A DNA stretch of 64,000 bases from Tubulanus polymorphus (GCF_964204645.1 NC_134026.1:5332001-5396000), one strand, 5' to 3'. Shown: positions 1-55,075, counted from the first letter of the stretch. Translations and numbers: made by a program. Notes: generated by a model not told the origin, from the letters alone.

Positions 1-1828
1 ATAGTACCACCGGTCTCCAGAAGGATCGAGCAGTAACACTGGTAACAGTGGTATCGGGGTAGCAGTAGTATCACCGGTCTCCAGAAGGATCGGGCAGTAT
101 CACTGGTATCAGTGCTATCGGGGTAGCAGTAGTATCACCGGTCTCCAGAAGGATCGGACAGTATCACTGGTAACAGTGGTATCGGGGTAGCAGTAGTATC
201 ACCGGTCTCCTGAAGGATCGGACAGTATCACTGGTATCAGTGGTATCGGGGTAGCAGTAGTATCACCGGTCTCGGAGAGGATCGGACAGTATCACTGGTA
301 ACAGTGGTATCGGGGTAGCAGTAGTATCATCGGTCTCCTGAAGGATCGGGCAGTATCACTGGTATCAGTGGTATCGGGGTAGCAGTAGTATCACCGGTCT
401 CCAGAAGGATCGGACAGTATCACTGGTAACAGTGGTATCGGGGTAGCAGTAGTATCACCGGTCTCCTGAAGGATCGGGCAGTATCACTGGTATCAGCGGT
501 ATTGGGGTAGCAGTAGTATCACCGGTCTCCAGAAGGATCGGGCAGTATCACTGGTAACAGTGGTATCGGGGTAGCAGTAGTATCACCGGTCTCCTGAAGG
601 ATCGGACAGTATCACTGGTAACAGTGGTATCGGGGTAGCAGTAGTATCACCGGTCTCGGAGAGGATCGGGCAGTATCACTGGTGTCAGTGGTATCGGGGT
701 AGCAGTAGTATCACCGGTCTCCTGAAGGATCGGACAGTATCACTGGTAACAGTGGTATCGGGGTAGCAGTAGTATCACTGGTCTCCAGAAGGATCGGACA
801 GTATCACTGGTAACAGTGGTATCGGGGTAGCAGTAGTATCACCGGTCTCCAGAAGGATCGGGCAGTATCACTGGTATCAGTGGTATCGGGGTAGCAGTAG
901 TATCACCGGTCTCGGAGAGGATCGGACAGTATCACTGGTAACAGTGGTATCGGGGTAGCAGTAGTATCACCGGTCTCCAGATGGATCGGGCAGTATCACT
1001 GGTATCAGTGGTATCGGGGTAGCAGTAGTATCACCGGTCTCCAGAAGGATCGGGCAGTATCACTGGTATCAGTGGTATCGGGGTAGCAGTAGTATCACCG
1101 GTCTCGGAGAGGATCGGGCAGTATCACTGGTAACAGTGGTATCGGGGTAGCAGTAGTATCACCGGTCTCCAGAAGGATCGGACAGTATCACTGGTAACAG
1201 TGGTATCGGGGTAGCAGTAGTATCACCGGTCTCCAGAAGGATCGGGCAGTATCACTGGTATCAGTGGTATCGGGGTAGCAGTAGTATCACCGGTCTCCGA
1301 GAGGATCGGGCAGTATCACTGGTAACAGTGGTATCGGGGTAGCAGTAGTATCACCGGTCTCCTGAAGGATCGGACAGTATCACTGGTAACAGTGGTATCG
1401 GGGTAGCAGTAGTATCACCGGTCTCGGAGAGGATCGGGCAGTATCACTGTTGTCAGTGGTATCGGGGTAGCAGTAGTATCACCGGTCTCCTGAAGGATCG
1501 GACAGTATCACTGGTAACAGTGGTATCGGGGTAGCAGTAGTATCACCGGTCTCCAGAAGGATCGGACAGTATCACTGGTAACAGTGGTATCGGGGTAGCA
1601 GTAGTATCACCGGTCTCCTGAAGGATCGGGCAGTATCACTGGTATCAGTGGTATCGGGGTAGCAGTAGTATCACCGGTCTCCGAGAGGATCGGACAGTAT
1701 CACTGGTAACAGTGATATCGGGGTAGCAGTAGTATCACCGGTCTCCTGAAGGATCGGACAGTATCACTGGTATCAGTGGTATTGGGGTAGCAGTAGGATC
1801 ACCGGTCTGGGAGAGGATCGGGCAGTAT
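1..1828 (+). repeat. 64-bp satellite array, left arm (about 28 units, open at window edge)
   Basis: Head-to-tail units recur at exactly 64 bp: the core accggtctcc starts at 9, 73 and 137. About 28 units are present and the array runs off the left edge. Each unit contains a short inverted repeat, cactg/cagtg around gtaa or gtat. Units differ at a few fixed places: ccagaagg, cctgaagg, cggagagg or ccgagagg after ggtct, and gggcag or ggacag. There are no unique spacers and no long open frame. The last unit carries the rare variant ggtctgggagagg and the one before it a rare attgggg, both repeated in mirror image at the inner edge of the array at 6577. Confidence 0.97.
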
Positions 1829-2130
1829 GCCATGAAGTTATAAGCAATAGTGAACTTTTAATTCTAGATATTTAAGATTCAAGCTAGTGTAGTATATTTG
1901 AAATGTGCGATGAACTGTGTTAATTTGTAGTAATGTTTTAATTCAAAGTTTGTATGATCATGATATCCTTAAGATGTTCCACAATAATAAATTAGATATA
2001 TGTATCATAAATATGAATTAATTGACCTTAAGATTGTATCTACTTACACTACATTCAGAAGGAGGGCGATTTTTACCTACTTTGAGGAATTTGGATTTTA
2101 GGGGAATTTAACCCTGAGGATTTTTACCAC
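1829..2130. mobile_element. Partial copy of the 3638-4300 inverted-repeat element
   Basis: This segment matches the right half of the element at 3638-4300 in direct orientation. Shared stretches include gaacttttaattctagata, tgttccacaataataaat and the closing block with ggatttttacctactttga. The left half and left terminal repeat are missing. It begins exactly where the satellite array ends, so the truncation point and the satellite junction coincide. Confidence 0.75.
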
Positions 2131-2872
2131 TAGCCGCTTTATATACCATCGTCGAACTGTCTATTTTACAGATGCACAGCCACTATTTGACCATAAGTGG
2201 CAAGAAAATTATAAGTAGAGGGAACTGTCCCAGATTACCGCGAACAGCAGAATTAACAGAACGTTTCTTTACCCTGAGCAGATATTTGCGAAATTTGATG
2301 AAAAATTTAAATTGTGGGCAATGTACATCTCTTAACAAATACATAGTAAAATACCCACGATATATACCGTCATACTCTCTATACCGTCAAAATTTTCTTC
2401 ACCGATGTGGATGGTATATCGGGGGTTGACTGTATTACAAAACAAAATAATTAATTCAAGTGATGAAAATATAATAGTAATAAAACTTGACGAGGACGTA
2501 TCCAGGAAAATGCAAAATGTGATTTACTTCTTTAAAATGAAATATTACACGCTTCCGCAAATTGTTCGCAAATGTTCTACATCTGAATTATCGATCCTGT
2601 AATGGGCTCAAGTAAAATTAAACCACCTGCATATTTTAACGCTCCAAGATCTGGCTATGTGACTACCAAAACTATGTAAGCTATCGATGCAAGCGGTGAA
2701 AAACAAAGAAGAAATAAGCCCCGGCCCTTGTTTTAATCCAATGAAAAATTCCGGTTTCATGTAACCGGCATATTTCCATATGAAATAAAAATCAATTAAA
2801 ATATTCTTCGTTTCAGTAATGATTTGAAAAGTAATGAGTAATGAATACGGTCGAAAGGGGGGTCATCCCTAG

Positions 2873-3516
2873 ATTCCCCAGGTTCTATGTTCCCCGGGCC
2901 CTATATTCCCCGGGTTCCATGTTCCCCGGGTCCTATATTCCCCGGGTTCTATATTCTCCCAAAGGAAATAATACAACGAGGGTTCCATATATTCTCCAAA
3001 TAATAAAAACGTTGACCGGTGTCCATACCTATGCTTTTTAATAATAGTCCATCAATCATATCATGTATTTGCTAGATACTATAAATTTGATACAGACAAG
3101 GTGCTTTTATTTTTTGCAAACGCCAGAACTTAACGAGAGAAATTCGAGATGACAATTAATCGATCGATCAGGTAATTTATTCAGTAGTTACGTCACACTG
3201 TAAAAAGGCTTTGAAACTTGCCCGGGAGATTTTTAATTGTGATTCATGTCGTTAATTTTCATTTAATAGAATAAAGATAAAGATAAAGATAAAGATACAT
3301 GTAGTGCCGATTTTCAACATCAACTAATTGGCAGCCTGACGCGTTATCATGCTCTGAATTCCCGGCGCCGAAATTGAGTGTATGTGGCCATGGGAACAAA
3401 GGACCTTTTTATACATTTTCCATAATCTTCCAGGAATATCGGATCCGGGGAATATAGAACCCCTTTTATGTTTAATCTCCCTTGGGGGAACATAGGACCC
3501 GAGGAACATAGGTATG
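2873..3516. mobile_element. Foldback-like element with minisatellite ends
   Basis: At 2873-2960 a roughly 17-bp unit (ttccccgggttctat with variants) is repeated about five times. At 3443-3516 similar units appear in reverse complement, including ggggaatatagaac and gggggaacataggacc. The block tccataccta near 3020 is also mirrored near 3512-3521. Inverted ends made of short tandem repeats are the hallmark of foldback-type transposons. The copy is imperfect and no transposase frame is present. Confidence 0.55.
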
Positions 3517-3637
3517 GACCCGTCGAAAGCACGACTTGCGTCCAGTCTTGGAATAATAATAAGTATAGCCGCGAGTACTCCAAGTCCAGTAGAACAGCAT
3601 ACAATCATGTGTACACTATGGTAAAAAACTTCTAGGT

Positions 3638-4300
3638 AGAAATCCCCAAATATTCAAAGTAGGTAAAAATCCCCACTTGGTGATTTTCAAGACCATTTCA
3701 AAGCAAAATGATACTCCAATTTTATTAATTTGCGATGAGACTGAAATATGTTTGGACTGTGCAATGAAATCTTTCGTTGTGATAAATTCTTAAGTAAACT
3801 CTTAGATTTCAATAAATTGTTAGAATTAATAAGAATAATACACTTTTATTTGTAATACCTTTAAATTCGAACCGGAATATCTTTGACCTGTGAACTCTTG
3901 TTAACTTGTGGTATATTTGAGCTGCGCGATGCAATGAATTATGAGCAATAACGAACTTTTAATTCTAGATATTTTAGTTTCAAACTAGTGTAATATATTT
4001 GACAAGTGCTAAGAACCCTTTCATTAAGCTGTGTGATAACTTTTGAGTACTAATTTAGTATTAATGAATTTTTGATTTGTAGTATGTTTGAATTCAAGTA
4101 GTATATGCAATAGTTTGTATACTCATGATATCCTTATGATGTTCCACAATAATAAATAGGATATGTGTATCATAAATATGAAATACCGGTAAATATGAAT
4201 TAATTGACCTTAAGATTGTATCTACTAAAACTACATTCAGAAGGAGGGGGATTTTTACCTACTTTGAAGAATTGGGGATTTTTACCAAGGGGATTTTTAC
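3638..4300. mobile_element. Non-autonomous element with terminal inverted repeats, about 660 bp
   Basis: The left end (3638-3676) reads aaatccccaaatattcaaag then taggtaaaaatcccc. The right end (4247-4300) is its reverse complement with about three mismatches in 35 bases, plus an extra ggggatttttac copy. The interior is AT-rich and non-coding. A half copy lies at 1829-2130. The size and lack of a transposase fit a MITE-like DNA element. Confidence 0.65.
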
Positions 4301-4621
4301 TGCACGGTAAAAGACACAGATTATCCGAGGTGATTGTGAAAAACACCAGGGAAAATTGGAAATTTTTGCAAAACTATTAAAGTTTTTCAACTAAAGAATA
4401 TTACAGTATTTCATTGACTTTTGCTGTGAAATCAAATTTGGGGGGATTTTGGGTTTTTTTTACCTAGGAGGGATTTTTACCTGTTACCAAATTATACTCT
4501 TCATCCATATGTGTACAGTTGCGTCCGCCTTACTCAGTGCTGGTCAACTTAGTATGACACTTAAGTTGTTGAATTTTACAAATAGGTATTTTGATGGACC
4601 TTCTATTTACACGGGATACGC

Positions 4622-5347
4622 CCATAATACCTCCGCCCAAAATGCCTCCGTCCAAAATCCCACACCCAGAATCCCTCCACCCAGAATACCCTCATATGTG
4701 TCCAAAATACCTCCACCCAGAATTTAAAAAAAAATACTATAATTATATTATTTAGATGTTTAAAGTACCACCAATATTGACTATTATTCATGTATAGGAT
4801 CATATATAATGTATTACGGTATATATAAACCTACTGAATAATAATTGAATAACAATTAATGACAATGTTCACTTGCAATTAGTTTTGGCTGGGAATATTA
4901 ATTAGTTTATCTCATGTCTTTAATCTTATGCTAGATTTCTCTGGAAACTATTCAATATTTAGATTATAGAATATTAATTAGTCCTATAATCTAAGAAAAC
5001 AATGTACTACATTTCGCTTTACACACTGAATTCAGTTCATTTCCATTTAAGTGCAACTATGATCACTGAAATTAACATTATACTTTGTTTTGCTCAATTA
5101 ACTACTTTTAAACTATAGAACTTTGGTTTATTTGAGTATTGCCTGTAAATTAAAACTTGGGGGGGGGACAAAATATTCATTCTAAAAAATTATATTTCTA
5201 ATAGGTTCAAATTTTTGTCCTTCGGGCATAAACCCATTAGATCTAGGGCCTGGAGGTATTTTGGACACATATGAGGGTATTCTGGGTGGAGGGATTCTGG
5301 GTGTGGGATATTTGGGTGGAGGTATTTTGGGCGGAGGTATTATGACC
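4622..5347. mobile_element. Foldback-like element with about 95-bp tandem-repeat termini
   Basis: The left terminus (4622-4715) is made of short repeats of the type cctccacccagaat or cctccgcccaaaat. The right terminus (5251-5347) is the same series in reverse complement, in the same order, including the marker ctcatatgtgtccaaaatac. The interior of about 535 bp is AT-rich with no gene. A transcript would form a long hairpin. Frames at 4449-4727 and 4603-4803 are by-products of these repeats. Confidence 0.75.
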
Positions 5348-6208
5348 CGGATTCATTTACACAGCCGATAGTCAATTGGTGAAATATTTTCAATACCAAT
5401 GCTACTAAAGCTGAGTTGTGGTCAATGGTAGTTCATTCAATGTTATAAAAACTGTGATGATCTGATACATTACTGCGTTGTATGCTTTTGATATTTTTGT
5501 GTTGTATGACTTCATTGGTGATTATATTTCTCAGGTATCATTTACATTTTACTTTACATTTTATTGTATCATATATTGTACATAATAGCAATGATTTATT
5601 CTCCATAGTCTTAATCTGCAATCTTGATATTGGTGCATATGTTTGTTTACAATATACTTAATTAGGCTGTTTAAAATTGAGAAACACTAATTAGTGAGTG
5701 ATTTGTGACTTAACTAATTTTTTTTAAATAAAGAAGTTTCCAGTTTCTAGGCGCCATTTTGTGGCGGTCCCTCGAGGTCCCCATTGTTGCGATAATTTGC
5801 ACTCATTTTTAAAACATAAGTTTAGATTGAATATCATATAGTTCTGCAGTCCCTTGCTCGACGAAATTAATTTATACACCATTTTTAAGGAAACGAAATG
5901 CAGATATTTGCTGGCGTTTCTTGGAATTTTTGAACGCAACAATTGAGAACACTGACGATGTGACCCCAAGGACCGCATATCTTAACCGCGCGTAAAAGAA
6001 ATCGCAACATTCATTAATTTCAAAATATCTAAGTATCTCTTAAAGCTATATTTCCAATTTTTACAGAGTTTAAAGAGGGTTATTTGCAGTTTAAGCCTGC
6101 GTTGAATATTTTTTTGAATATCTTTCCTGACGACTGATCTGTACCCGCTTGAGTTTGAGATTACCCGATAAAGTTAGATAATTTGATACGCCTTCAACAA
6201 ATCTTCCA

Positions 6209-6350
6209 GGGGCCAGTTGCATAGTTATGGCTTAGACTTAAGACCAGTCTAAGACCAACTTAGTTCTATAGCCAATCTAACAACTTGAGACCAGTCTTAA
6301 GATTTAAGACCACTTTTGGACTTAAGTCACAAACTGTGCAACTGGCCCCC
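6209..6350. mobile_element. Short hairpin element, ggggccagttgca family
   Basis: The ends are inverted: ggggccagttgcatagtt at 6209 and aactgtgcaactggccccc ending at 6350. The interior has further inverted taagacc/ggtctta copies, so the whole 142 bp can fold. It belongs to the same loose family as the elements at 16162, 33582, 40464 and 59116. Confidence 0.7.
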
Positions 6351-6576
6351 GATCCTTAGCTGCTATGTACTATTCAAAATCAAAAAACTTAGTACGGAGA
6401 GTATTACCAGGCAGTGGATACGGCGCACCAAAAAATGAAACCAAATTTTGCAACTCTGGAAAATAAATACATGTACCACCGATAAAAATTCCACTGTAAT
6501 ACTAGTCAAACCTCGCTACAACGAGATCTTTTATAACGAAATATCGGTTTAATCAAACGTGTCCGGCGCAAAAAAG

Positions 6577-9500
6577 TCTACTGCTACCCCGATACCACTG
6601 TTACCAGTGATACTGCCTGATCCTCTCCCAGACCGGTGATACTACTGCTACCCCAATACCACTGATACCAGTGATACTGCCCGATCCTTCAGGAGACCGG
6701 TGATACTACTGCTACCCCGATACCACTGATACCAGTGATACTGTCCGATCCTCTCAGAGACCGATGATACTACTGCTACCCCGATACCACTGTTACCAGT
6801 GATACTGTCCGATCCTTCAGGAGACCGGTGATACTACTGCTACCCCGATACCACTGTTACCAGTGATACAGCCCGATCCTCTCAGAGACCGATGATACTA
6901 CTGCTACCCCGATACCACTGTTACCAGTGATACTGTCCGATCCTCTCAGAGACCGATGATACTACTGCTACCCCGATACCACTGTTACCAGTGATACTGT
7001 CCGATCCTCTCCGAGACCGGTGATACTACTGCTACCCCGATACCACTGTTACCAGTGTTACTGCCCGATCCTTCTGGAGACCGGTGATACTACTGCTACC
7101 CCGATAGCACTGTTACCAGTGTTACTGCTCGATCCTTCTGGAGACCGGTGATACTACTGATACCCCGATACCACTGTTACCAGTGATACTGTCCGATCCT
7201 CTCGGAGACCGGTGATACTACTGCTACCCCGATACCACTGATACCAGTGATACTGCCCGATCCTCTCGGAGACCGGTGATACTACTGATACCCCGATACC
7301 ACTGTTACCAATGATACTGCCCGATCCTCTCGGAGACCGGTGATACTACTGCTACCCCGATACCACTGTTACCAGTGATACTGTCCGATCCTCTCGGAGA
7401 CCGGTGATACTACTGCTACCCCGATACCACTGATACCAGTGATACTGCCCGATCCTTCAGGAGACCGGTGATACTACTGCTACCCCGATACCACTGATAC
7501 CAGTGATACTGTCCGATCCTCTCAGAGACCGATGATACTACTGCTACCCCGATACCACTGTTACCAGTGATACTGCCCGATCCTCTCCGAGACCGGTGAT
7601 ACTACTGCTACCCCGATACCACTGTTACCAGTGATACCGTCCGATCCTTCAGGAGACCGGTGATACTACTGCTACCCCGATACCACTGTTACCAGTGATA
7701 CTGTCCGATCCTCTCAGAGACCGATGATACTACTGCTACCCCGATACCACTGTTACCAGTGATACTGTCCGATCCTCTCCGAGACCGGTGATACTACTGC
7801 TACCCCGATACCACTGATACCAGTGATACTGCCCGATCCTTCTGGAGACCAGTGATACTACTGCTACCCCGATACCACTGATACCAGTGATACTGCCCGA
7901 TCCTTCTGGAGACCGGTGATACTACTGCTACCCCGATACCACTGTTACCAGTGATACTGTCCGATACTCTCCGAGACCGGTGATACTACTGCTACCCCGA
8001 TACCACTGATACCAGTGATACTGCCCGATCCTTCAGGAGACCGGTGATACTACTGCTACCCCGATACCACTGTTACCAGTGTTACTGCCCGATCCTTCTG
8101 GAGACCGGTGATACTACTGCTACCCCGATAGCACTGTTACCAGTGTTACTGCTCGATCCTTCTGGAGACCGGTGATACTACTGATACCCCGATACCACTG
8201 TTACCAGTGATACTGTCCGATCCTCTCGGAGACCGGTGATACTACTGCTACCCCGATACCACTGATACCAGTGATACTGCCCGATCCTCTCGGAGACCGG
8301 TGATACTACTGCTACCCCGATACCACTGTTACCAGTGATACTGTCCGATCCTTCAGGAGACCGGTGATACTACTGCTACCCCGATACCACTGTTACCAGT
8401 GATACTGTCCGATCCTCTCAGAGACCGATGATACTACTGCTACCCCGATACCACTGTTACCAGTGATACTGTCCGATCCTCTCCGAGACCGGTGATACTA
8501 CTGCTACCCCGATACCACTGATACCAGTGATACTGCCCGATCCTTCTGGAGACCAGTGATACTACTGCTACCCCGATACCACTGATACCAGTGATACTGC
8601 CCGATCCTTCTGGAGACCGGTGATACTACTGCTACCCCGATACCACTGTTACCAGTGATACTGCCCGATCCTTCTGGAGACCGGTGATACTACTGCTACC
8701 CCGATACCACTGTTACCAGTGATACTGCCCGATCCTTCTGGAGACCGGTGATACTACTGCTACCCCGATACCACTGTTACCAGTGATACTGTCCGATACT
8801 CTCCGAGACCGGTGATACTACTGCTACCCCGATACCACTGATACCAGTGATACTGCCCGATCCTTCAGGAGACCGGTGATACTACTGCTACCCCGATACC
8901 ACTGTTACCAGTGTTACTGCCCGATCCTTCTGGAGACCGGTGATACTACTGCTACCCCGATAGCACTGTTACCAGTGTTACTGCTCGATCCTTCTGGAGA
9001 CCGGTGATACTACTGATACCCCGATACCACTGTTACCAGTGATACTGTCCGATCCTCTCGGAGACCGGTGATACTACTGCTACCCCGATACCACTGATAC
9101 CAGTGATACTGCCCGATCCTCTCGGAGACCGGTGATACTACTGCTACCCCGATACCACTGTTACCAGTGATACTGTCCGATCCTTCAGGAGACCGGTGAT
9201 ACTACTGCTACCCCGATACCACTGTTACCAGTGATACTGTCCGATCCTCTCAGAGACCGATGATACTACTGCTACCCCGATACCACTGTTACCAGTGATA
9301 CTGTCCGATCCTCTCCGAGACCGGTGATACTACTGCTACCCCGATACCACTGATACCAGTGATACTGCCCGATCCTTCTGGAGACCAGTGATACTACTGC
9401 TACCCCGATACCACTGATACCAGTGATACTGCCCGATCCTTCTGGAGACCGGTGATACTACTGCTACCCCGATACCACTGTTACCAGTGATACTGCCCGA

Positions 9501-10368
9501 TCCTTCTGGAGACCGGTGATACTACTGCTACCCCGATACCACTGATACCAGTGATACTGCCCGATCCTCTCGGAGACCGGTGATACTACTGATACCCCGA
9601 TACCACTGTTACCAGTGATACTGCCCGATCCTCTCGGAGACCGGTGATACTACTGCTACCCCGATACCACTGTTACCAGTGATACTGTCCGATCCTCTCG
9701 GAGACCGGTGATACTACTGCTACCCCGATACCACTGATACCAGTGATACTGCCCGATCCTTCAGGAGACCGGTGATACTACTGCTACCCCGATACCACTG
9801 ATACCAGTGATACTGTCCGATCCTCTCAGAGACCGATGATACTACTGCTACCCCGATACCACTGTTACCAGTGATACTGCCCGATCCTCTCCGAGACCGG
9901 TGATACTACTGATACCCCGATACCACTGATACCAGTGATACTGCCCGATCCTCTCAGAGACCGGTGTTACTACTGATACCCCGATACCACTGTTACCAGT
10001 GATACTGCCCGATCCTCTCCAAGACCGGTGATACTACTGATACCCCGATACCACTGTTACCAGTGATACTGCCCGATCCTTCCAGAGACCGGTGATACAA
10101 CTGATACCCCGATACCACTGTTACCAGTGATACTGCCCGATCCTCTCCAAGACCGGTGATACTACTGATACCCCGATACCACTGTTACCAGTGATATTGT
10201 CCGATCCTTCTGGAGACCGGTGATACTACTGATACCCCGATACCACTGTTACCAGTGATACTGCCCGATCCTCTCCAAGACCGGTGATACTACTGATACC
10301 CCGATACCACTGTTACCAGTGATACTGTCCGATCCTCTCAGAGACCGATGATACTACTGATACCAGTG
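6577..10368 (-). repeat. 64-bp satellite array, right arm, inverted (about 59 units)
   Basis: This array has the same 64-bp unit as 1-1828 in reverse complement, about 59 copies. It contains higher-order duplication: the rare variant gatagcac followed by tgctcgatcc recurs at 7103, 8127 and 8959, that is 16 and then 13 units apart. Towards the right end most units read ctgatacccc instead of ctgctacccc, a local homogenised subfamily. The inner-edge units carry the same rare variants as the left arm. The array stops at about 10368, roughly 120 bp before the eIF4H duplication. No coding potential was seen. Confidence 0.97.
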
Positions 10369-10488
10369 TTGCTACGGATGCTTTCGGCCCGTGTTGTATG
10401 CGGTGGTCCTGTTCTCACTGTATTGTCCCATGGCGCCCTCTACATAGCCGCCATCTTGAAACGGTGTTCTGGTACACCACCGAACAAC

Positions 10489-12942
10489 CCGTCTTATTCT
10501 GATCGAGACGGGTAATTTTACATCATTGCATCTGTCCAATTTCTCATTTACGATTTTTTCAGCCTACACAGTTTCAGTAGGCTTACATCAAATCAACATC
10601 TTCGTCAGATCGACGCTGAAACTGGAACTAACAAGCAACGCATGCATCGCTAACCAGCCGCCATGCTGCCGCCGCGCGCCATCGGCGTCACCTGCCTGCT
10701 GCTCTATTTGCTTGAGCACATACAACACAATACATATAAAGATACCAATATGCTTGCAGTGTGGTTGTTGGTTTAGAATTTAACGGGCTAAGTTCTAGCT
10801 GCAGGGTCGGGGAGCGGGATGATCTTTAAAAGGCAGGTCTTGATTGAACGCACTCAGACTTTTTAGGAATAGCATTTATTTCCAGATAATGTCTAAACTC
10901 AACAGGTTTATTCTATACTGGAATGTAGAGCGTATTTTAGTTGAAACGAAAAAGCCAGAATCGTTCGTTGAGACCGATCAAAACCTGCCTGTTGTTAGTG
11001 ATACTCACCATACTAGATACTGAGGCCTAAATTATGAACCCTTACCTTCAGATCAACCTGATTGATTCATCATCAAGAGACATGATTTGCCTAATTTTTT
11101 TGTCGCTGTCTCAAAATCATAATGAAAATTTGATTAATTGAAAATGAAAATGAAATTTTGAACGGGTTGTCCTATAGGTCTGGTAAGCTCGCTGTGCGTT
11201 GCATTGCATGGGCAGCTCATTAAAACACCATTAATTCTTTATTAGAACCCGTTAACATAGATTGTAGGTAAGACTTGCAGATCCACACCTACTTTGAACC
11301 ATTGTTGAAAGGTGCTGATCTGCACTTCTGATAGTATCAGTGTTGACTCCTCGATTCAATCTACTTTGAAATTGAAAATACTTTTATAAGTGGTTTCATT
11401 AGAGCAAAATGTCCAAAACTCCTTTTATATAATTTTTATAGTTCAGAAAACTACACCTAAATCGGTACAGTTGGAACCAGGATTTTTTCTACCAATTAGG
11501 TGGTTGTCCAATTTGAAACCTAGTTTAGATTAGTGCAAAGGATAGAAATTTGCCTACAAAACCATCGAATTAGTGGTTAACCGGGATAAACAGTAGGGCT
11601 ACCTATTTAGGAGGAGTCTACTGTAATGAAAGTGATGCGGACACTTCCTTGAAATTTCAAATGTTCTTGAAAACTCGTCATATCCAAGAATGACTGATCT
11701 GTAGAGTGGCCGAGTGGTTTAAACCGCCGGTCACTGGTCTTGTCAATCCAGGGTTTGTGGGTTCAAACCCGGGTGGCGACAGAGTTTCTTGGTCGAAGGT
11801 TCTTCTCTGGTCTCTCCCCCATTGGGAAAAAGAAACATCGAACTGGCTTATAATGCCCTGTGTGGCGCTTAGCAGGTTGAGGGTGTTGACCGATCTGTAG
11901 GGACCCCTGGATAACAGGCGCTATATTATTGAAACTGTTAGTTTGTTTTGTAGCGGCTATAACAATTATGGTGACAGACGAGGAGGAGGAGGAGGCGGCG
12001 GCGGTGGTGGACGATATCAACAAGAATTCCCGACCGAAGCACCGTTTACGGCTTACGTGGGAAATCTACCCGATGGCGTCGTGCAAGGAGATTTACATGA
12101 TATGTTCCAAGATTTAAAAGTGAGTTGAGACCAAAAATATAAATTTCAATGTAGGCCCTAATCAAATTCATGATGAATCTGGATCACTTGGAACTGATAA
12201 AATCTATAAAAGGCTCATTATAGCGGGGAAAAAAGCTTTGCGCTTTTATCATATAACTGTGATACAAGTAATTTCGAGTAATGTAGATGTTAATGAAATT
12301 TTTTTCAAACGAAAAATATTGTATTTTTATGTCATACAGAGTGGGTAGAGACAGTAACCCCTAGTAATGTCTAGTTTATGAAGTAATCCATAGTATTATT
12401 GGTATTCACCTCAGGTGATAAAATCAATCCAGGTTATAAGAAATTTGAATTGAATGTGATCGAATTATATATCCGGACTAAACCAAATCGGATTGAGCTG
12501 CTCCGGATTAGGCATGTTATTAAGTTGACAGTTTTGGTTATAAACCTAACCTCCATTAACCTTGTTTTTTCCAGGTTAAAAATTCTCGTTTGGTGCGCGA
12601 TAAAGTGACTGATAAATTTAAAGGATTTGCGTACGTCGAATTTGCCGACGGGGAAAATTTACGCGAGGCGCTTGAATTCGACGGTGCTGTTAGTATCTTA
12701 ATCTCGTGTAATAATTTAATAATGCCGAACTATTCGAGTTTTAATTCTAAATCGCTGTTGTATGTTTTAGTTATTTGTAGATAAAAATATACGGGTCAAT
12801 ATTGCGCAAGGTCGTAAGAGCGACCGAGGAGGTGGGTTCCGCGGTCGAGGAGGAAGTGGAGGTATATTTTTTAAACGTGATTTAATTCTGTCCGAATTTT
12901 GAATGAATTGATACCGGTACTTGTCTCGCACACCAGTGGTTT

Positions 12943-12944
<2 letters not shown>
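10489..12944 (+). pseudogene. 5'-truncated segmental copy of the eIF4H gene (copy A)
   Basis: This is a near-identical copy of 20170-22627. I counted roughly ten differences in 2.46 kb, including one glycine codon and a one-base deletion in an intron. It starts inside exon 1, keeping only its last 37 bases and lacking the ATG. It then carries exon 2 (11954-12119), exon 3 (12575-12688) and exon 4 (12771-12861) with intact frames and splice sites. It stops in intron 4, so exons 5-7 and the promoter are missing. It cannot make a normal eIF4H by itself. The very low divergence means a very recent duplication, gene conversion, or an assembly duplicate. Confidence 0.93.
11705..11886 (+). mobile_element. 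tRNA-derived SINE in copy A intron 1
   Basis: The 182-bp insert begins with a polymerase III type 2 promoter: box A tggccgagtgg and box B gggttcaaaccc, as in Ser/Leu-type tRNAs. The acceptor ends do not pair, so it is not a tRNA gene. A non-tRNA body follows. It is flanked by tgactgatctgtag (11691-11704) and tgaccgatctgtag (11887-11900), a 14-bp target-site duplication with one mismatch. The open frame at 11706-11900 is a by-product. Confidence 0.8.
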
Positions 12945-13029
<85 letters not shown>

Positions 13030-13037
13030 GTACGTAC

Positions 13038-13105
<68 letters not shown>
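12945..13105. repeat. (TA)n microsatellite at the duplication breakpoint
   Basis: About 160 bp of nearly pure TA dinucleotide, interrupted once by tacgtacgtacgtg near 13028-13041. It starts at the exact base where copy A stops matching the intact eIF4H gene. The Tyr-Ile open frames across it are artefacts. Confidence 0.97.
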
Positions 13106-16263: not shown

Positions 16264-19200
16264 AGATGTCTAAGTAATAATCGATTAATGCAAATTCAAA
16301 GGGTTGATCCAAGATTTCCAACGGTCGATAACTCTGCTGGTCTTCCCCCGGGATTTTGAAAAATTGCTCCCTTTTTCAATGCATCTGAGCATTGATCATT
16401 CCATATGTAACATATGACAAAAACTGAAAATTAATAATACGAAGGAAATTTTCCAAGCGTTGCAACAAAGCATATCCAATGATTTTTATATCGATCAATG
16501 ATGGTGTCATGAATTTTCTTGTTTATTTTTTTCTTGTAGCGGTTATAACAATTACGGTGGTAGACAAAGAGGTGGATACGGTAGATATGGAGGTGACGAA
16601 TATCCACAAGAAATCCCTACTGAACCGCCGTTTAAAGCTTACGTCGGAAATCTACCCTATAGCTTCGTTCAAGAAGATCTACTCAAAATCTTCAGTAATT
16701 TTGACGTAAGTCTAACCTTAAATTAACATTTGAAATGTCACATGATCGGTAATGATCATGATTTTCGAAATTATGTTTGGCATACGCATGTCGAAAAAAA
16801 CCATCAGCATCGAAAAACGAATCGGAGTTAATAAGATTTTTACATACGTAATTTAAATAACCTGCATTCGAATTATATATCGCGTTTAAGGGGGACGATC
16901 GAATGACAACCGGATCAGATCGAAATCAGGATTAACCTGTTCCAGTTTAAGCAGGGTTTACCTGGATTACAGCAGACACTTTTCGGTGGTCAATTCACGC
17001 GTTGTATTAGATTTTAAAATTGAATGTTTATTATTTACTTGGTGTCTACCCCCAAAACCGCCCTCCCATATATACCGGCACCCCATCTTACCGCCAGGTT
17101 TTCTCATCTGTACATCAGACCAATATCGGGAGTTTTGACGGTATTATCACTATCTAACCTTTAATTGTCCCGTTTTTCAGGTTAAAGATGCTCGTATGAT
17201 AAACGATAGAGATACTGGTAAATTCAAAGGATTTGCTTACGTCGAATTTGCCGATGCGGATAATTTAAGCAAGGCGCTTGAATTAGACGGCTCAGTGAGT
17301 AAATTCTTTCTCAAATCATCGATAATTCAAAACAGTCGTTAACAAAACTATTCGCCGTATTTGATTCTGTATCACTTTTACGATTCCATACATTTTAGTC
17401 ATGTGGTGAAAGAAGTATGTGGGTCAAAGTTGTGCATGGGCGGACTGACGGTGGAGGTCGTGGAGGTAATGTAGCGATTAAAACAATCAAGATTTCAAAT
17501 GCCTAATCTACAAAGCAGATGAGCTATGATTGACCTTTATATTTAAATTTTCGGCTGAAAATTCAGATTCCAGCGGCCATTAAATCCGATCGGCCTATTT
17601 TATAAATGCTCATTGGTTTTATCTGCTATATTGAAATGACATTTTCAATTTTGGTATTACAGGCTACAGAGGTTATGATAGAGGCGGCCGAAGTTTTGAT
17701 AGAGGTGGATACCGAGGAGGTTACAGGCGCGGCGGCGGATATAACGATCGAGGCGGTTACGGGGGCGGTCGATTCTCGTCTGATCAATGATCAGTGAGAG
17801 TTGGCGTGATTCGGATATTCCTCATGAACCATCACCTGGTAATACTTGGTTAATTTTTGATAATAGTTTTATTGCATTGAAATATTTCTCCTTCATAACT
17901 GTAACACTTCCCAGTTAATAACTACCGGCATATTCAATTTGCTTTGTAACGTATTTTGTTTAAGGTATTTTGTAATATTTTTTTTTTCTTTAATTTCAGG
18001 TGAAATGGTTTTATGTAGATTATACCTATTTGAATGAATTGAGCGCATACTCAATCGCAGAATGTGACATTCTGAAAAAAATGAGATAGGTCTATCCCTC
18101 TCTTATTTTCTTAATTATTACCTTTGAAAAAGAATATCGTTAAAAAAAATTAAGCTTGATTATTTACAGTAACATAATGCAAAAGAATGTAATTAACTTC
18201 CAATTTTCAATCTTGTCTTAATCTGCAATCATGAAAATCTCAAATGTGCAGTAGCGTGTGTTGTGTTGTGTAACACAGGATCGCGCCATGCCCAGCACGC
18301 GGCTAAATCGCCTTAGCCATTAATCTGTATTCGGTCTAGTGGGGTGAGGCTTTAAGAGTTTTATGTTTTTGCAATACAAGGCGATGATTATAAACGGGTT
18401 TAAACCAAATTCATGATCAGAGTGATCAGGTTTTACTTCTGATAAAAATAAATAAGGTTTTCTTTTTTAAAAAAAAAGTGTTGATGATTTGTTCCATTTC
18501 GGTGTAGGTTCGCAGAGAAGTTAATTTGTTGATCAGGTCATCGTTTAGTGGTCGGCTTCAGTGTCTGTGGATCGCGATCATATATTACACAAACTTTTGG
18601 TATACAACCACCAACGACTAAATACGATGAACGATGAAGTACTCGGTCATTGAAGCCTGTGCGTTCATGTTCACATAGGGGATAAGTGTAACCGGCTGGT
18701 TGTTGTATTGGTGGGCTGGCTGGGGAACTAGCATTTACACCAGCGGTACAGGATTCCATCCATCAGGAACAACAAGGCAGTTAAACCTTATATGTGCAAT
18801 CTTTATTGCATCCCGGAATGAGAATGATTATCATAGCTTTACATAGTCTTTATATACAGAATCATTAGTATAATGTGAGAACTAGGTGTCAGACAAGTTG
18901 TAGACATCAGGACTCGAAACAAACACCTAGTGACATGTTTGAGAGACATTAATTAATTATCGATGAGCACTGACTATAGCTAATTATTGTGAAAACATAT
19001 TGAGTAATGTCACATGTTGATTACGACCTTAAAGCACATATTGACACTATAGTCATAAGTTATATTATATTATTATTATTATTATTATTAATATGTAGTA
19101 GAGCTATGAAATGTTGTGAACTGTTCGATATGACATTGTAGATCTATATGATTATGAAATATGCAAATTATATCAGGGTGACATAAAGCCGGGTTCAAAA

Positions 19201-19385
19201 TTAACCCCCCAAGCCGTTCACTCGGTGCCTCTCGACCCTGCAGATTGGTCGTGGCCAGTTCTTCTGGGTTATCGAATGGGAAACAGGAGGATATATAACA
19301 TCTGCAAGAAAAGTACCTGAATTAACTAGAGAAATCCCACAATGATTCAAGGCAAAAGATGAAAAAAAGAAGAGTATATATTTTG

Positions 19386-19424
19386 GGCAACGTTTCGGCT
19401 AAACACTATCAGCCATCATCAGGC
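19386..19424 (-). mobile_element. Penelope-like element end motif with hammerhead-type core
   Basis: On the minus strand the sequence runs CTGATGA, then ggct, a loop, agcc, then GAAAC. This CUGAUGA-stem-GAAA layout is the conserved core of the hammerhead ribozymes known in Penelope-like retroelements. Stem II (ggct/agcc) is visible. I could not place stems I and III confidently, and no reverse transcriptase frame is nearby, so this is a remnant. Confidence 0.5.
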
Positions 19425-19584
19425 GTACTGGAAATAATGTAACAGAATATTTATACAAGAATCAGACAATAAGATTAAAGGGATTAAACAACAAAAACCA
19501 GAGATCAAAGGAGGCAAAACGACGAGGAAGGGGGTCGGGTACTAATGCAAAGCCAATCAATATTGTGTGGGCCCGCCGACCCTA

Positions 19585-19682
19585 GTCAGTAACCTGACTG
19601 GTTTAGTTTCACGATCGGATATTTTCACAAACCACGTTGGTATAAGCCCATCCGATTATAAAAAGCTTACCACCAACGATTA
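19585..19682. repeat. Dispersed repeat, copy 1
   Basis: This is nearly identical to 26522-26627. Shared blocks include gtttagtttcacgatcggat and cttaccaccaacgatta. It contains an internal inverted pair, atcggat/atccgat. Confidence 0.75.
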
Positions 19683-19787
19683 ACCAACCGTACGCCGACC
19701 CCGGAGAGTGATTATAAGGCATCCATCTTACACGGAGAGTATCTTCTTGACTCGTACCACAGGCCGGACTTGACACAAAAGGATTTT

Positions 19788-19832
19788 GACCCCAGTATCC
19801 TAGGTACTATTAGTATCTAGGATAGTGGGGTC
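19788..19832. repeat. Imperfect palindrome upstream of eIF4H
   Basis: The arms gaccccagtatcctag and ctaggatagtggggtc pair at 15 of 16 positions with a 13-bp loop. It lies about 300 bp upstream of the eIF4H start. It could be a small transposon remnant or a regulatory hairpin; the sequence alone does not decide. Confidence 0.6.
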
Positions 19833-19849
19833 ATAATCTCGAAATTCCG

Positions 19850-20136
19850 GCCACCTCGGTACACGACCGCCGCCCGCAGCCCCGGGGGGCGCGGCCACGC
19901 ACGACCCGTTACCGGCCGTTGGTCTCCACTACACATTACTTTTAGCTGGCAAAGTGGAAAACCGGGATATCCTAATTATAGGCTTCAATGAGCCCCTGTT
20001 TTGGATTGCAGAACAATCCGATACGGAGAATTTGCCACCACCCGCCGGATTCTCGACCGGCGTGTGCCCCGGCGAGCTGCTTAGATTCTAACCTGTTCTT
20101 TGCGGTAGTTAGTGCGATTAGTTCACCTATTCCAAT
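19850..20136 (+). promoter_or_regulatory. GC-rich probable promoter and 5' UTR of eIF4H
   Basis: GC and CpG content rises sharply just before the eIF4H start, with cgaccgccgcccgcagcccc near 19865. This contrasts with the AT-rich surroundings and fits the CpG-rich promoter of a constitutive gene. No TATA box was identified. Copy A lacks this region. Confidence 0.5.
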
Positions 20137-23100
20137 ATGGCGAACTACGGCCGTGATTACGATGATCGTCCGTCTTATTCTGATCGAGACGGGTAATTTT
20201 ACATCATTGCATCTGTCCAATTTCTCATTTACGATTTTTTCAGCCTACACAGTTTCAGTAGGCTTACATCAAATCAACATCTTCGTCAGATCGACGCTGA
20301 AACTGGAACTAACAAGCAACGCATGCATCGCTAACCAGCCGCCATGCTGCCGCCGCGCGGCATCGGCGTCACCTGCCTGCTGCTCTATTTGCTTGAGCAC
20401 ATACAACACAATACATATAAAGATACCAATATGCTTGCAGTGTGGTTGTTGGTTTAGAATTTAACGGGCTAAGTTCTGGCTGCAGGGTCGGGGAGCGGGA
20501 TGATCTTTAAAAGGCAGGTCTTGATTGAACGCACTCAGACTTTTTAGGAATAGCATTTATTTCCAGATAATGTCTAAACTCAACAGGTTTATTCTATTCT
20601 GGAATGTAGAGCGTATTTTAGTTGAAACGAAAAAGCCAGAATCGTTCGTTGAGACCGATCAAAACCTGCCTGTTGTTAGTGATACTCACCATACTAGATA
20701 CTGAGGCCTAAATTATGAACCCTTACCTTCAGATCAACCTGATTGATTCATCATCAAGAGACATGATTTGCCTAATTTTTTTGTCGCTGTCTCAAAATCA
20801 TAATGAAAATTTGATTAATTGAAAATGAAAATGAAATTTTGAACGGGTTGTCCTATAGGTCTGGTAAGCTCGCTGTGCGTTGCATTGCATGGGCAGCTCA
20901 TTAAAACACCATTAATTCTTTATTAGAACCCGTTAACATAGATTGTAGGTAAGACTTGCAGATCCACACCTACTTTGAACCATTGTTGAAAGGTGCTGAT
21001 CTGCACTTCTGATAGTATCAGTGTTGACTCCTCGATTCAATCTACTTTGAAATTGAAAATACTTTTATAAGTGGTTTCATTAGAGCAAAATGTCCAAAAC
21101 TCCTTTTATATAATTTTTATAGTTCAGAAAACTACACCTAAATCGGTACAGTTGGAACCAGGATTTTTTCTACCAATTAGGTGGTTGTCCAATTTGAAAC
21201 CTAGTTTAGATTAGTGCAAAGGATAGAAATTTGCCTACAAAACCATCGAATTAGTGGTTAACCGGGATAAACAGTAGGGCTACCTATTTAGGAGGAGTCT
21301 ACTGTAATGAAAGTGATGCGGACACTTCCTTGAAATTTCAAATGTTCTTGAAAACTCGTCATATCCAAGAATGACTGATCTGTAGAGTGGCCGAGTGGTT
21401 TAAACCGCCGGTCACTGGTCTTGTCAATCCAGGGTTTGTGGGTTCAAACCCTGGTGGCGACAGAGTTTCTTGGTCGAAGGTTCTTCTCTGGTCTCTCCCC
21501 CATTGGGAAAAAGAAACATCGAACTGGCTTATAATGCCCTGTGTGGCGCTTAGCAGGTTGAGGGTGTTGACCGATCTGTAGGGACCCCTGGATAACAGGC
21601 GCTATATTATTGAAACTGTTTGTTTGTTTTGTAGCGGCTATAACAATTATGGTGACAGACGAGGAGGAGGAGGAGGAGGCGGCGGCGGTGGTGGACGATA
21701 TCAACAAGAATTCCCGACCGAAGCACCGTTTACGGCTTACGTGGGAAATCTACCCGATGGCGTCGTGCAAGGAGATTTACATGATATGTTCCAAGATTTA
21801 AAAGTGAGTTGAGACCAAAAATATAAATTTCAATGTAGGCCCTAATCAAATTCATGATGAATCTGGATCACTTGGAACTGATAAAATCTATAAAAGGCTC
21901 ATTATAGCGGGGAAAAAAGCTTTGCGCTTTTATCATATAACTGTGATACAAGTAATTTCGAGTAATGTAGATGTTAATGAAATTTTTTTCAAACGAAAAA
22001 TATTGTATTTTTATGTCATACAGAGTGGGTAGAGACAGTAACCCCTAGTAATGTCTAGTTTATGAAGTAATCCATAGTATTATTGGTATTCACCTCAGGT
22101 GATAAAATCAATCCAGGTTATAAGAATTTGAATTGAATGTGATCGAATTATATATCCGGACTAAACCAAATCGGATTGAGCTGATCCGGATTAGGCATGT
22201 TATTAAGTTGACAGTTTTGGTTATAAACCTAACCTCCATTAACCTTGTTTTTTCCAGGTTAAAAATTCTCGTTTGGTGCGCGATAAAGTGACTGATAAAT
22301 TTAAAGGATTTGCGTACGTCGAATTTGCCGACGGGGAAAATTTACGCGAGGCGCTTGAATTCGACGGTGCTGTTAGTATCTTAATCTCGTGTAATAATTT
22401 AATAATGCCGAACTATTCGAGTTTTAATTCTAAATCGCTGTTGTATGTTTTAGTTATTTGTAGATAAAAATATACGGGTCAATATTGCGCAAGGTCGTAA
22501 GAGCGACCGAGGAGGTGGGTTCCGCGGTCGAGGAGGAAGTGGAGGTATATTTTTTAAACGTGATTTAATTCTGTCCGAATTTTGAATGAATTGATACCGG
22601 TACTTGTCTCGCACACCAGTGGTTTTGGTTAACTGTTGTGCTTCGATACCATATGGCAGTTGAGCTAAACAGACTTGCTGTTGACTGTTCCTGATGATAT
22701 CAATATTTTACCACTATTTTATCCTGAGAAATATTGATATGATTTGTTTGTCGTGTACTGTAATGTAAAAGTTGTTACAATTGATTAATGATTAATTTTA
22801 AAATTTCATATTTCACTGAAATTAGTAAAATTCAACTTATTACTGATAGCACTTCTTAGAGGTGTGGCTGCCATTAGGCCTTTATACTTTAATCATTGGC
22901 CACAGTGGCATGGACATGAATTATTGAAAATGTATCTTTTGCATGTCCAGTTATCTGTCGTATTAATGTGAATCTTTTTGTTTCATTTTTCGTATGATAG
23001 GCGGCTTCAGAGGTGGCCGAGGTAGTGATAGAGGTGGATACCGAGGAGGTTACCAGGATGACGAAAGAGGTCAACAATTTGACGGTGGTCGATACGGCGG

Positions 23101-53535: not shown

Positions 53536-54112
53536 TTTTTAAGTCAGACTAATCTCATAATTTTTTTTCAAACATGTGAAACAATCATCTATCGCTGTTT
53601 TCAGAATAAACCATTTAGTAGAAGCTCAAACGGAATAATATGGAAACCATATGCTATATAAGTACACATGTGATTATATAAAGGTGGCGCTGCAAGGCAG
53701 TCATCTCAGCCAAAAACTAAACAAGCATATTTGACTTCATTGCCGATATTTTGTCACATATATCTATATTAGCTACCGGGATTAGATAAAAAATACATTG
53801 AAAAAATAATACAAAGAAATACATGTTCATGCTTCGACTTTCTGATTTTGCCAATCTATTTTTCTAAAAATCAATGTATGCGTTCCATATATACACAATA
53901 GACAACACAAACACAATCAGTGGTAGTTCTAAAGTTTCTTATTTCATTACGCGATGACAATAAGTTATTGTGATAGAATACATGAATTCTACATGAACAA
54001 ATTGATTCATCATTATGTACATGTTTATCCTGTGTGTATATCCTATAATTTTCATCATTTGCAAACCGATAATCCTTGAGTACGGTCAGTTCAGCGAACC
54101 TGAACGTGGATC

Positions 54113-55075
54113 ATGAATTCATCTTTGATGCAGATTGGTCGGCCTTACCACAGTTACAACATCCTCCTGTCATTGGAAAGCAAGTCTCCCGCTTACCGTA
54201 TGTTCTCTATATTCTTTCTGTCGATTACATTTTTGCTGGGGGCATTTGGAAACTCCGCTACTTTTCTCATTATGATAAGTCACAGATTCAGGAATTTATC
54301 TTATGCCAACTATCTTATTGCTCTATCTTCGTGCGATATGCTATTCTCATTCAACCTCACGATAATGCCCGTCGTACAGCTTGGTTTCTTACACGTGAAA
54401 AACGGTCCCATATTCCTCATCAACTCGCTAATAAGTTGTAAAATCTTCGAATTTCTAATGGGACTCGCAAGTTCTTGCAGTTCCTGGTTCATAGTAGCTG
54501 TATCTCTCGAACGTGCTGCAGTCGTGCTCTTCCCGCTGAAGTCTCGTTTGATATGTACACCGAGATTCGCCCGATATGTCATCGTGATCATTTTCATCGT
54601 GAATGCGCTGATCATCTACCTTTCTCCTTTCATGGATATGGGTTTCTTAGATAATTTTGGATGTTACTATAAACTATCGATACAATTCGTTCTTTATCTC
54701 TCACTTGCGGTTTACATCTACACTTTACCTTTGATTTTCATAGTTACATCAAATTATGTCATAATACTAAATTTGTCCAAAAGTTCCGAATTGATTTCAT
54801 CGGATAAAAAATCTACAACCTCAAAAAGAACAACAAAAATGCTTATCACAGTGTCACTAGCATTTGCGATATTCACGCTACCCGTCACTATGAATACGTT
54901 TTTACCAATTTCCGTAGAATCAAAAGACTTTCTTTTTGATGTGTTCAGCAATTTTCAATTGTGCAATTATGCAATAAACTTTTACATATATCTTTTGCTG
55001 GGAAGGGAAATTCGTGAATATTTCTGCGAAAGGGTTTGCTGCATGGATAAAGGACGAAATATAAGTCACTGGTAG
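54113..55075 (+). CDS. Class A (rhodopsin-like) G-protein-coupled receptor, orphan
   Basis: An intronless 320-aa frame with seven hydrophobic segments, presumably in the plasma membrane. TM1 carries the GN motif (GNSATFLIM, about residues 46-54). TM2 has the conserved aspartate (SSCDML). TM3 ends in ERA instead of DRY (residues 133-135). Cys109 and Cys184 are placed to form the usual TM3-ECL2 disulfide. TM6 keeps a proline (FTLPV) but not the CWxP tryptophan. TM7 has NFYIY in place of NPxxY. An NSS glycosylation site follows the initiator Met. The layout resembles invertebrate peptide-type orphan receptors. The ligand is unknown. Confidence 0.85.
   Translation: MNSSLMQIGRPYHSYNILLSLESKSPAYRMFSIFFLSITFLLGAFGNSATFLIMISHRFRNLSYANYLIALSSCDMLFSFNLTIMPVVQLGFLHVKNGPIFLINSLISCKIFEFLMGLASSCSSWFIVAVSLERAAVVLFPLKSRLICTPRFARYVIVIIFIVNALIIYLSPFMDMGFLDNFGCYYKLSIQFVLYLSLAVYIYTLPLIFIVTSNYVIILNLSKSSELISSDKKSTTSKRTTKMLITVSLAFAIFTLPVTMNTFLPISVESKDFLFDVFSNFQLCNYAINFYIYLLLGREIREYFCERVCCMDKGRNISHW

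Follow-up and report, generated by a model that had tools for sequence, protein, structure and literature searches.

The two inverted arrays of a 64-bp unit at the start of the window (the whole 64,000-nucleotide stretch of Tubulanus polymorphus DNA that was analysed, C2:5332001-5396000) are almost certainly the arms of a single element, which belongs to a young family of non-autonomous DNA transposons of the foldback type. The features of the foldback class are all present: tandem-repeat inverted ends, a unique terminal domain outside them, a TSD together with an empty site, dispersed copies with differing flanks, and arms of variable length. A previous reading made from the sequence alone had offered two origins for the mirror image, an inverted duplication of one array or a giant foldback-type element with long tandem-repeat termini; the inverted ends, nine perfect TSDs, empty site and near-identical dispersed copies described below bear out the second.

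Structure of the window copy

The copy in the window, copy A, is 11,923 bp long (C2:5330567-5342489) and its first 1,434 bp lie to the left of the window. It is composed, in order, of a terminal inverted end of ~120 bp, 49 units, a 4,750-bp spacer, 60 inverted units and the opposite end. The features, in window coordinates, are:

1..10489, + strand: foldback-type transposon copy A, both termini located, perfect 8-bp TSD
1..1828, + strand: left arm, inner part, tandem 64-bp units (the complete arm has 49)
1766..1828, + strand: innermost left-arm unit, with the ATTGGGG and GGTCTGGGAGAGG variants, present in 9 of 9 copies
1829..6578, + strand: spacer (middle domain), 4,750 bp
2861..3535, no strand assigned: probable older nested element in the spacer, with 16-bp tandem repeats at 2867-2956 and an inverted counterpart at ~3436-3520
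4613..5354, no strand assigned: 742-bp nested element with inverted repeats and termini of 15-bp tandem repeats, absent in relatives K and M
5727..6173, + strand: a lone terminal repeat of ~445 bp from a different family of dispersed elements
6579..10373, - strand: right arm, 60 inverted units of the 64-bp repeat
10374..10489, - strand: right terminal domain (~120 bp), 3' end type GGTTGTTCGGTGGTGTACCAG
10490..10497, + strand: TSD CGTCTTAT of copy A, second copy at C2:5330559-5330566
20171..20178, + strand: paralogous empty site with a single CGTCTTAT, in a tandem copy of the flanks

TRF places 28.5 copies of the 64-bp unit at window 2-1828 (+) and 59.2 copies, in the opposite orientation, at window 6578-10364, each array being ~93% alike internally. 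The left arm pairs with the right arm in many registers, over 1.83 kb at 93-94% identity. The inverted arrays first noticed in the sequence, around a spacer put at 4.7 kb, are therefore real. The object had, however, been seen only in part: the left arm extends 1.3 kb past the window edge, its outer end, which extension leftwards had been expected to reveal, is at C2:5330567 with the 5' end type GGTTAGTCAGTGGTGTACCAG, and window 10374-10489 also belongs to the element.

The left arm is closed by GGTATTGGGG...GGTCTGGGAGAGG, the reverse complement of which sits one truncated unit inside the inner end of the right arm. The rare variants said to be shared by the two innermost units of each arm are thus genuine and in register, but the “two units” together make up neighbouring pieces of roughly one 64-bp repeat, and the third unit, described as matching in type, does so only via the common variant CTCCTGAAGG and adds nothing.

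Copies of the family and their target sites

A genome search with the innermost left-arm units found eight other copies with the arm-spacer-arm layout, on C1, C2 (three more), C3, C7, C8 and C9, giving nine copies over six contigs; a search for other such loci had been proposed beforehand. The occurrence of the same layout at nine loci, with a perfect TSD at each, shows that it is not an assembly error. The family's spacers are 3.2-4.8 kb long, and the part equivalent to window 5700-6577 is 99-100% identical in all nine copies.

In every copy the ~120-bp sequence outside the right arm recurs, inverted, outside the left arm. These terminal domains begin with GGTTAGTCAGTGG on one side and GGTTGTTCGGTGG on the other, and the genome contains 38 matches to a 28-bp end pattern, as against 0 to a reversed control. 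Immediately outside GGTTAGT... and ...AACAACC there is a perfect 8-bp direct repeat in 9 of 9 copies: CGTCTTAT (the window copy), CTATGAAC, CTACTACG, AACGGAAT, CAACTTTA, CCATTTCT, GTTTATAC, GGAAAAAT and AGTTTTTC. Perfect 8-bp TSDs are also carried by relatives N (595 bp; GCTATATA) and K (14.4 kb; CTCCAACG), and the TSD is exactly 8 bp in all 11 copies where it is readable; relatives J and M have no matching TSDs at their ends.

Among the nine copies the spacers differ pairwise by 0.02-0.54% (99.5-99.98% identity). Copies D (C9) and G (C2), which have different TSDs and lie on different contigs, show 1 difference in 9,151 positions, arrays included. This near-identity at separate sites, together with the low divergence of the spacers, indicates recent movement of the family, and it shows that arrays of 47 and 19 units can come through transposition without change.

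The window itself also contains an empty site. The DNA to the left of copy A (2,566 bp) matches window 17608-20178 at 99.1%, the DNA to its right (window 10490-12944) matches window 20171-22627 at 99.6%, and the two matches overlap by exactly one CGTCTTAT, at window 20171-20178. The host sequence is duplicated in tandem (second copy window 17608-22627, 99% identical) and the element is in one copy only. Judged from the sequence alone, the insertion of copy A lies in what appears to be a first coding segment, between ATGGCGAACTACGGCCGTGATTACGATGATCGTCCGTCTTAT and TCTGATCGAGACGGgt.

Search for the transposase

Genome searches for diverged ends turned up fragments or unrelated elements and no autonomous copy with the family ends, and in the spacer no transposase was recognised and there is no frame of at least 110 aa other than one crossing the 15-bp repeats. 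Several candidates were considered and rejected. The first is at C5:19444664 (L036), where a family end lies ~100 bp from the end of a transposase-like coding stretch. The stretch has no Pfam match, and the link is accidental: comparison with the longer relative at C10:7013695 (L043) places the family end inside another gene, and a deletion through a shared GAAACGG probably joined end and transposase-like stretch. Neither a partner end nor, by eye, a transposase frame accompanies the array-less ends on C1, C4, C6, C7, C8 and C9 (L035, L044-L049) or four further weak ends (L052-L055). At C3:19113630-19116082 the two paired ends belong to a different inverted-repeat element with no frame above 100 aa. 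The 20-kb J locus, considered as a large autonomous copy, has two ends of the 5' type and no TSD; its frames are RT, weak 7tm-like and zinc-finger, and it was taken as a recombinant. The 17.5-kb M locus is a truncated copy with an LTR-retrotransposon insertion.

The genome does contain many MULE transposase frames, none of whose matches lies beside any family end. Two near-identical 2.6-kb copies (L058 and L059) each have a 444-aa frame matching MULE, inverted ends built from tandem 16-bp repeats, of which one side has 6 in one copy and 5 in the other, and TSDs of 8-9 bp (TTCTGATAC and TGTGTTAC). This genome therefore does combine a MULE transposase with tandem-repeat inverted ends, and a MULE-type transposase is a plausible kind of motor for such an architecture here. 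The strict 8-bp TSD of the present family fits several transposases: MULE TSDs are 8-11 bp, mostly 9, and hAT, P-type and Merlin-type transposases give TSDs of 8 bp; hAT and P ends usually start with CA.

Two kinds of motor have to be weighed. That the same element is moved by a MULE (Mutator superfamily) transposase is a serious possibility, although we stop short of calling it probable. Ends starting with GG would fit, and to the many MULE frames is added the one MULE family, just described, with tandem-repeat inverted ends and 8-9 bp TSDs. Furthermore, most foldback elements of known affinity are MULE-related (PMC4079207, PMC3169594). Against this stand the absence of MULE matches beside the family ends and the TSD of exactly 8 bp in every copy, which is compatible with a MULE but not typical.

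The invariant length would be expected of a transposase with a fixed 8-bp footprint (hAT, P/THAP9-like or Merlin), and we regard such a motor as nearly as likely as a MULE. The family ends, however, lack the starting CA, and TSDs such as CGTCTTAT, CCATTTCT and AACGGAAT are off the hAT pattern nTnnnnAn, even though their length fits. In its favour, besides the 8-bp TSD in 11 of 11 readable copies, Galileo is a P-superfamily element with foldback-type tandem-repeat ends (PMC3573991, PMC3688188).

Whichever the motor, the searches gave no autonomous element with these ends, and so we can only infer that the terminal domains are recognised by a transposase from another locus and that the element moves by cut-and-paste. 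The transposase might perhaps also recognise sites in the arrays, as for Galileo; since the terminal domain and the 64-bp unit share no significant sequence (no similarity beyond that of shuffles), this is a guess by analogy. The arms would grow and shrink through unequal exchange of unit blocks. Their pairing would also permit recombination within an element, which would explain why in one copy, relative K, the spacer is inverted relative to the end types, an orientation that fits recombination between inverted arms. It is unlikely, in our estimation, that the arrays are functional transposase-binding sites selected for their length, serving a transposase of unknown superfamily, and that the arms regularly flip the spacer in the way suggested for K; were this true, the family would be a live system for transposon ends expanding into satellite arrays.

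Unit order in the arms

Had a single satellite array been duplicated in inverted form at this locus to give the mirror image, as the sequence-only reading proposed as one possibility, the units of the two arms should follow each other in mirror order, which that reading had set beforehand as the test. All 18 arms were divided into their units, 612 in number and of 124 types, and the ordered lists were compared with shuffles. Copy A has no mirror order beyond chance outside the innermost unit: the longest ordered subset common to its left and right arms has 10 units, compared to 10.5 +/- 0.9 by chance. In none of the nine copies does the left-right ordered subset stand out against shuffles; in copy C alone the longest left-right run (3 units) is rarely reached by them (3 of 200). 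Comparison of like arms gave a different result: between the left arms of copies A and B the ordered subset reaches 30 units where chance gives 14.7, and there is a run of 14 units; between their right arms it reaches 19 where chance gives 9.7.

Since unit order is shared between like arms of different copies but, beyond the innermost unit, not between left and right, the two arms belong to distinct lineages whose inverted arrangement goes back to the common ancestor of all copies. From that ancestor onwards the left and right arms have grown and shrunk independently. Across the nine copies the arms range from 27-52 units on the left and from 5-60 on the right, varying independently per arm and copy. 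The right arm of copy A holds block duplications of 13 units (832 bp), as unequal exchange would give. The divergence between units is about equal within and between arms; the arms are therefore not two separately homogenised satellites.

A recent inverted duplication at this locus, for which the opposite orientation and the shared innermost variants speak, is accordingly very improbable: the unit order is not mirrored beyond the innermost unit, eight other sites have the same layout with separate TSDs, and the empty site contains neither arm. Such a duplication could at most have taken place in a distant ancestor of the family.

Distribution of the unit in the genome

With 2 or fewer mismatches allowed, the genome has 769 matches to a 32-bp core of the unit (0 to a reversed control), of which 755 (98%) are in the examined loci of the element family, making the label “satellite” misleading. 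Tandem arrays independent of the mobile element are almost absent from the assembly, and sequence missing from it could hide more. Tandem 64-bp units and 13-unit higher-order repeats would suit ordinary satellite DNA lying by chance on both sides of an unrelated spacer, but with nearly all core matches inside family loci, a fixed spacer, fixed termini, TSDs at nine copies and an empty site, this explanation can be dismissed as extremely improbable.

Contents of the spacer

The spacer of the transposon is made in part of older nested repeats. The 742-bp element is flanked by ATTTACAC at window 4605-4612 and 5355-5362, and relatives K and M have in its place an uninterrupted site with a single ATTTACAC. 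The TU elements of sea urchins have long inverted ends of 15-bp tandem repeats and an 8-bp TSD, and it is this small nested element (window 4613-5354) that they most closely resemble by description. At window 2861 the edge GGGGTCATCCC of the probable older nested repeat resembles the edge GGGGTCATCCCACTAG of the MULE foldback family represented by L058 and L059. The family whose ~445-bp terminal repeat occurs singly in the spacer carries it elsewhere as an inverted pair ~0.87 kb apart. Copy E is without the equivalent of window 2620-4227.

Relation to known elements

As far as comparison with published descriptions can tell, the family is a new one among the foldback transposons, with nothing new in principle. 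By description its anatomy matches that of Tetris in Drosophila virilis, which has a terminal domain, variable numbers of tandem repeats per TIR, a non-coding middle, a TSD of 8-10 bp and no known transposase (PMC4079207). The Tetris unit is 220 bp, whereas here it is 64 bp with 5-60 units per arm; 37 bp are common to terminal domain and unit in Tetris and none is detectable here; and three complete copies compare with nine near-identical ones having perfect 8-bp TSDs (PMC4079207). The present family also differs in having almost no free units.

The Tm1 Mutator/Foldback family of root-knot nematodes, one group of which encodes a transposase, is alike, again by description, in its asymmetric short outer motifs, tandem-unit numbers that differ between the TIRs of a single element, conserved inner array end and paralogous empty sites (PMC3169594). 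It differs in units of 13-15 bp, TSDs mostly of 9 bp and the transposase of that group, none having been found here (PMC3169594). Galileo, of the P superfamily in Drosophila, for which binding of the transposase to the repeats has been shown, shares by description the long inverted ends, internal tandem repeats varying independently per end and non-autonomous copies, but has a 7-bp TSD, ends of at most ~1.25 kb and a THAP/P-type transposase (PMC3573991, PMC3688188).

The kind of element is thus known already and the understanding of foldback elements is unchanged in kind. What the family offers is a clean and recent picture of a transposon with satellite-like arrays as its ends, and its copies show the independent evolution of the two arms. 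It fits the idea, based on Tetris, that satellites are born inside foldback transposons, here with almost no free array in the assembly. With nine assembled copies bearing TSDs, two of them one base apart, the rate of array change within a mobile element becomes measurable. The arms could also, as had been suggested from their inverted arrangement, give rise to a long double-stranded RNA; such an RNA is possible, and its stem might reach ~3.1 kb.

Relatives of the element and the surrounding host DNA

Host DNA around the transposon is tandemly duplicated over at least 5 kb, window 17608-22627 corresponding to positions 1-2566 of the DNA left of the element (L009) plus window 10490-12944, and the two copies are 99.1-99.6% identical. 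The transposon is present in one of them, within an apparent first coding segment. An array of 80 TA dinucleotides (window 12945-13104) borders the duplication.

Two loci elsewhere in the assembly involve relatives:

C2:8888634-8908906 (L016/L017/L029), 20-kb locus, both outer ends of the 5' type, no target-site duplication (TSD)
L020 799-9326 (contig C4), LTR-retrotransposon and 855-aa frame, inserted in a relative

The 20-kb locus looks recombinant. A second inverted repeat is nested between its 64-bp arms, the 249/327-aa frame of which matched no Pfam family; further frames between the arms are an RT, a zinc-finger and a weak 7tm-like one. The retrotransposon in L020 matches protease, RT, RNase H and integrase.

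Other mobile elements and frames

L058 574-3256 (locus C5:10704200-10708700), 2.6-kb element, 444-aa frame with MULE match
L059 (C7:13339200-13343700), near-identical 2.6-kb element
C4:8846799-8846990 (L051), 192-bp MITE, near-perfect palindrome
L043 (C10:7009500-7016500), Polinton/Maverick-like frames, by eye
L052 (C3:13618500-13624500), likewise

In L058 and L059 the inverted ends are 16-bp tandem repeats (CCACTAGTCCGGGGGT) enclosing the frame, which matches PF10551 (MULE), and the TSDs are 8-9 bp; these are apparently foldback MULEs with recent activity, and possibly autonomous. The MITE has related ends (GGTTATATACTGGTGTACCAG) and lacks a clear TSD. By eye, the L043 and L052 frames resemble Polinton/Maverick-type genes, with an ATPase-like GVTNCGKT motif and an integrase-like frame; interspersed with those of L043 is a transposase-like gene (GHGDANRLLKEFK...ISMDGP), the conserved stretch of which matched no Pfam family. 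Within the window itself, a 323-aa open frame (54104-55075) resembles, again by eye, a seven-transmembrane receptor.
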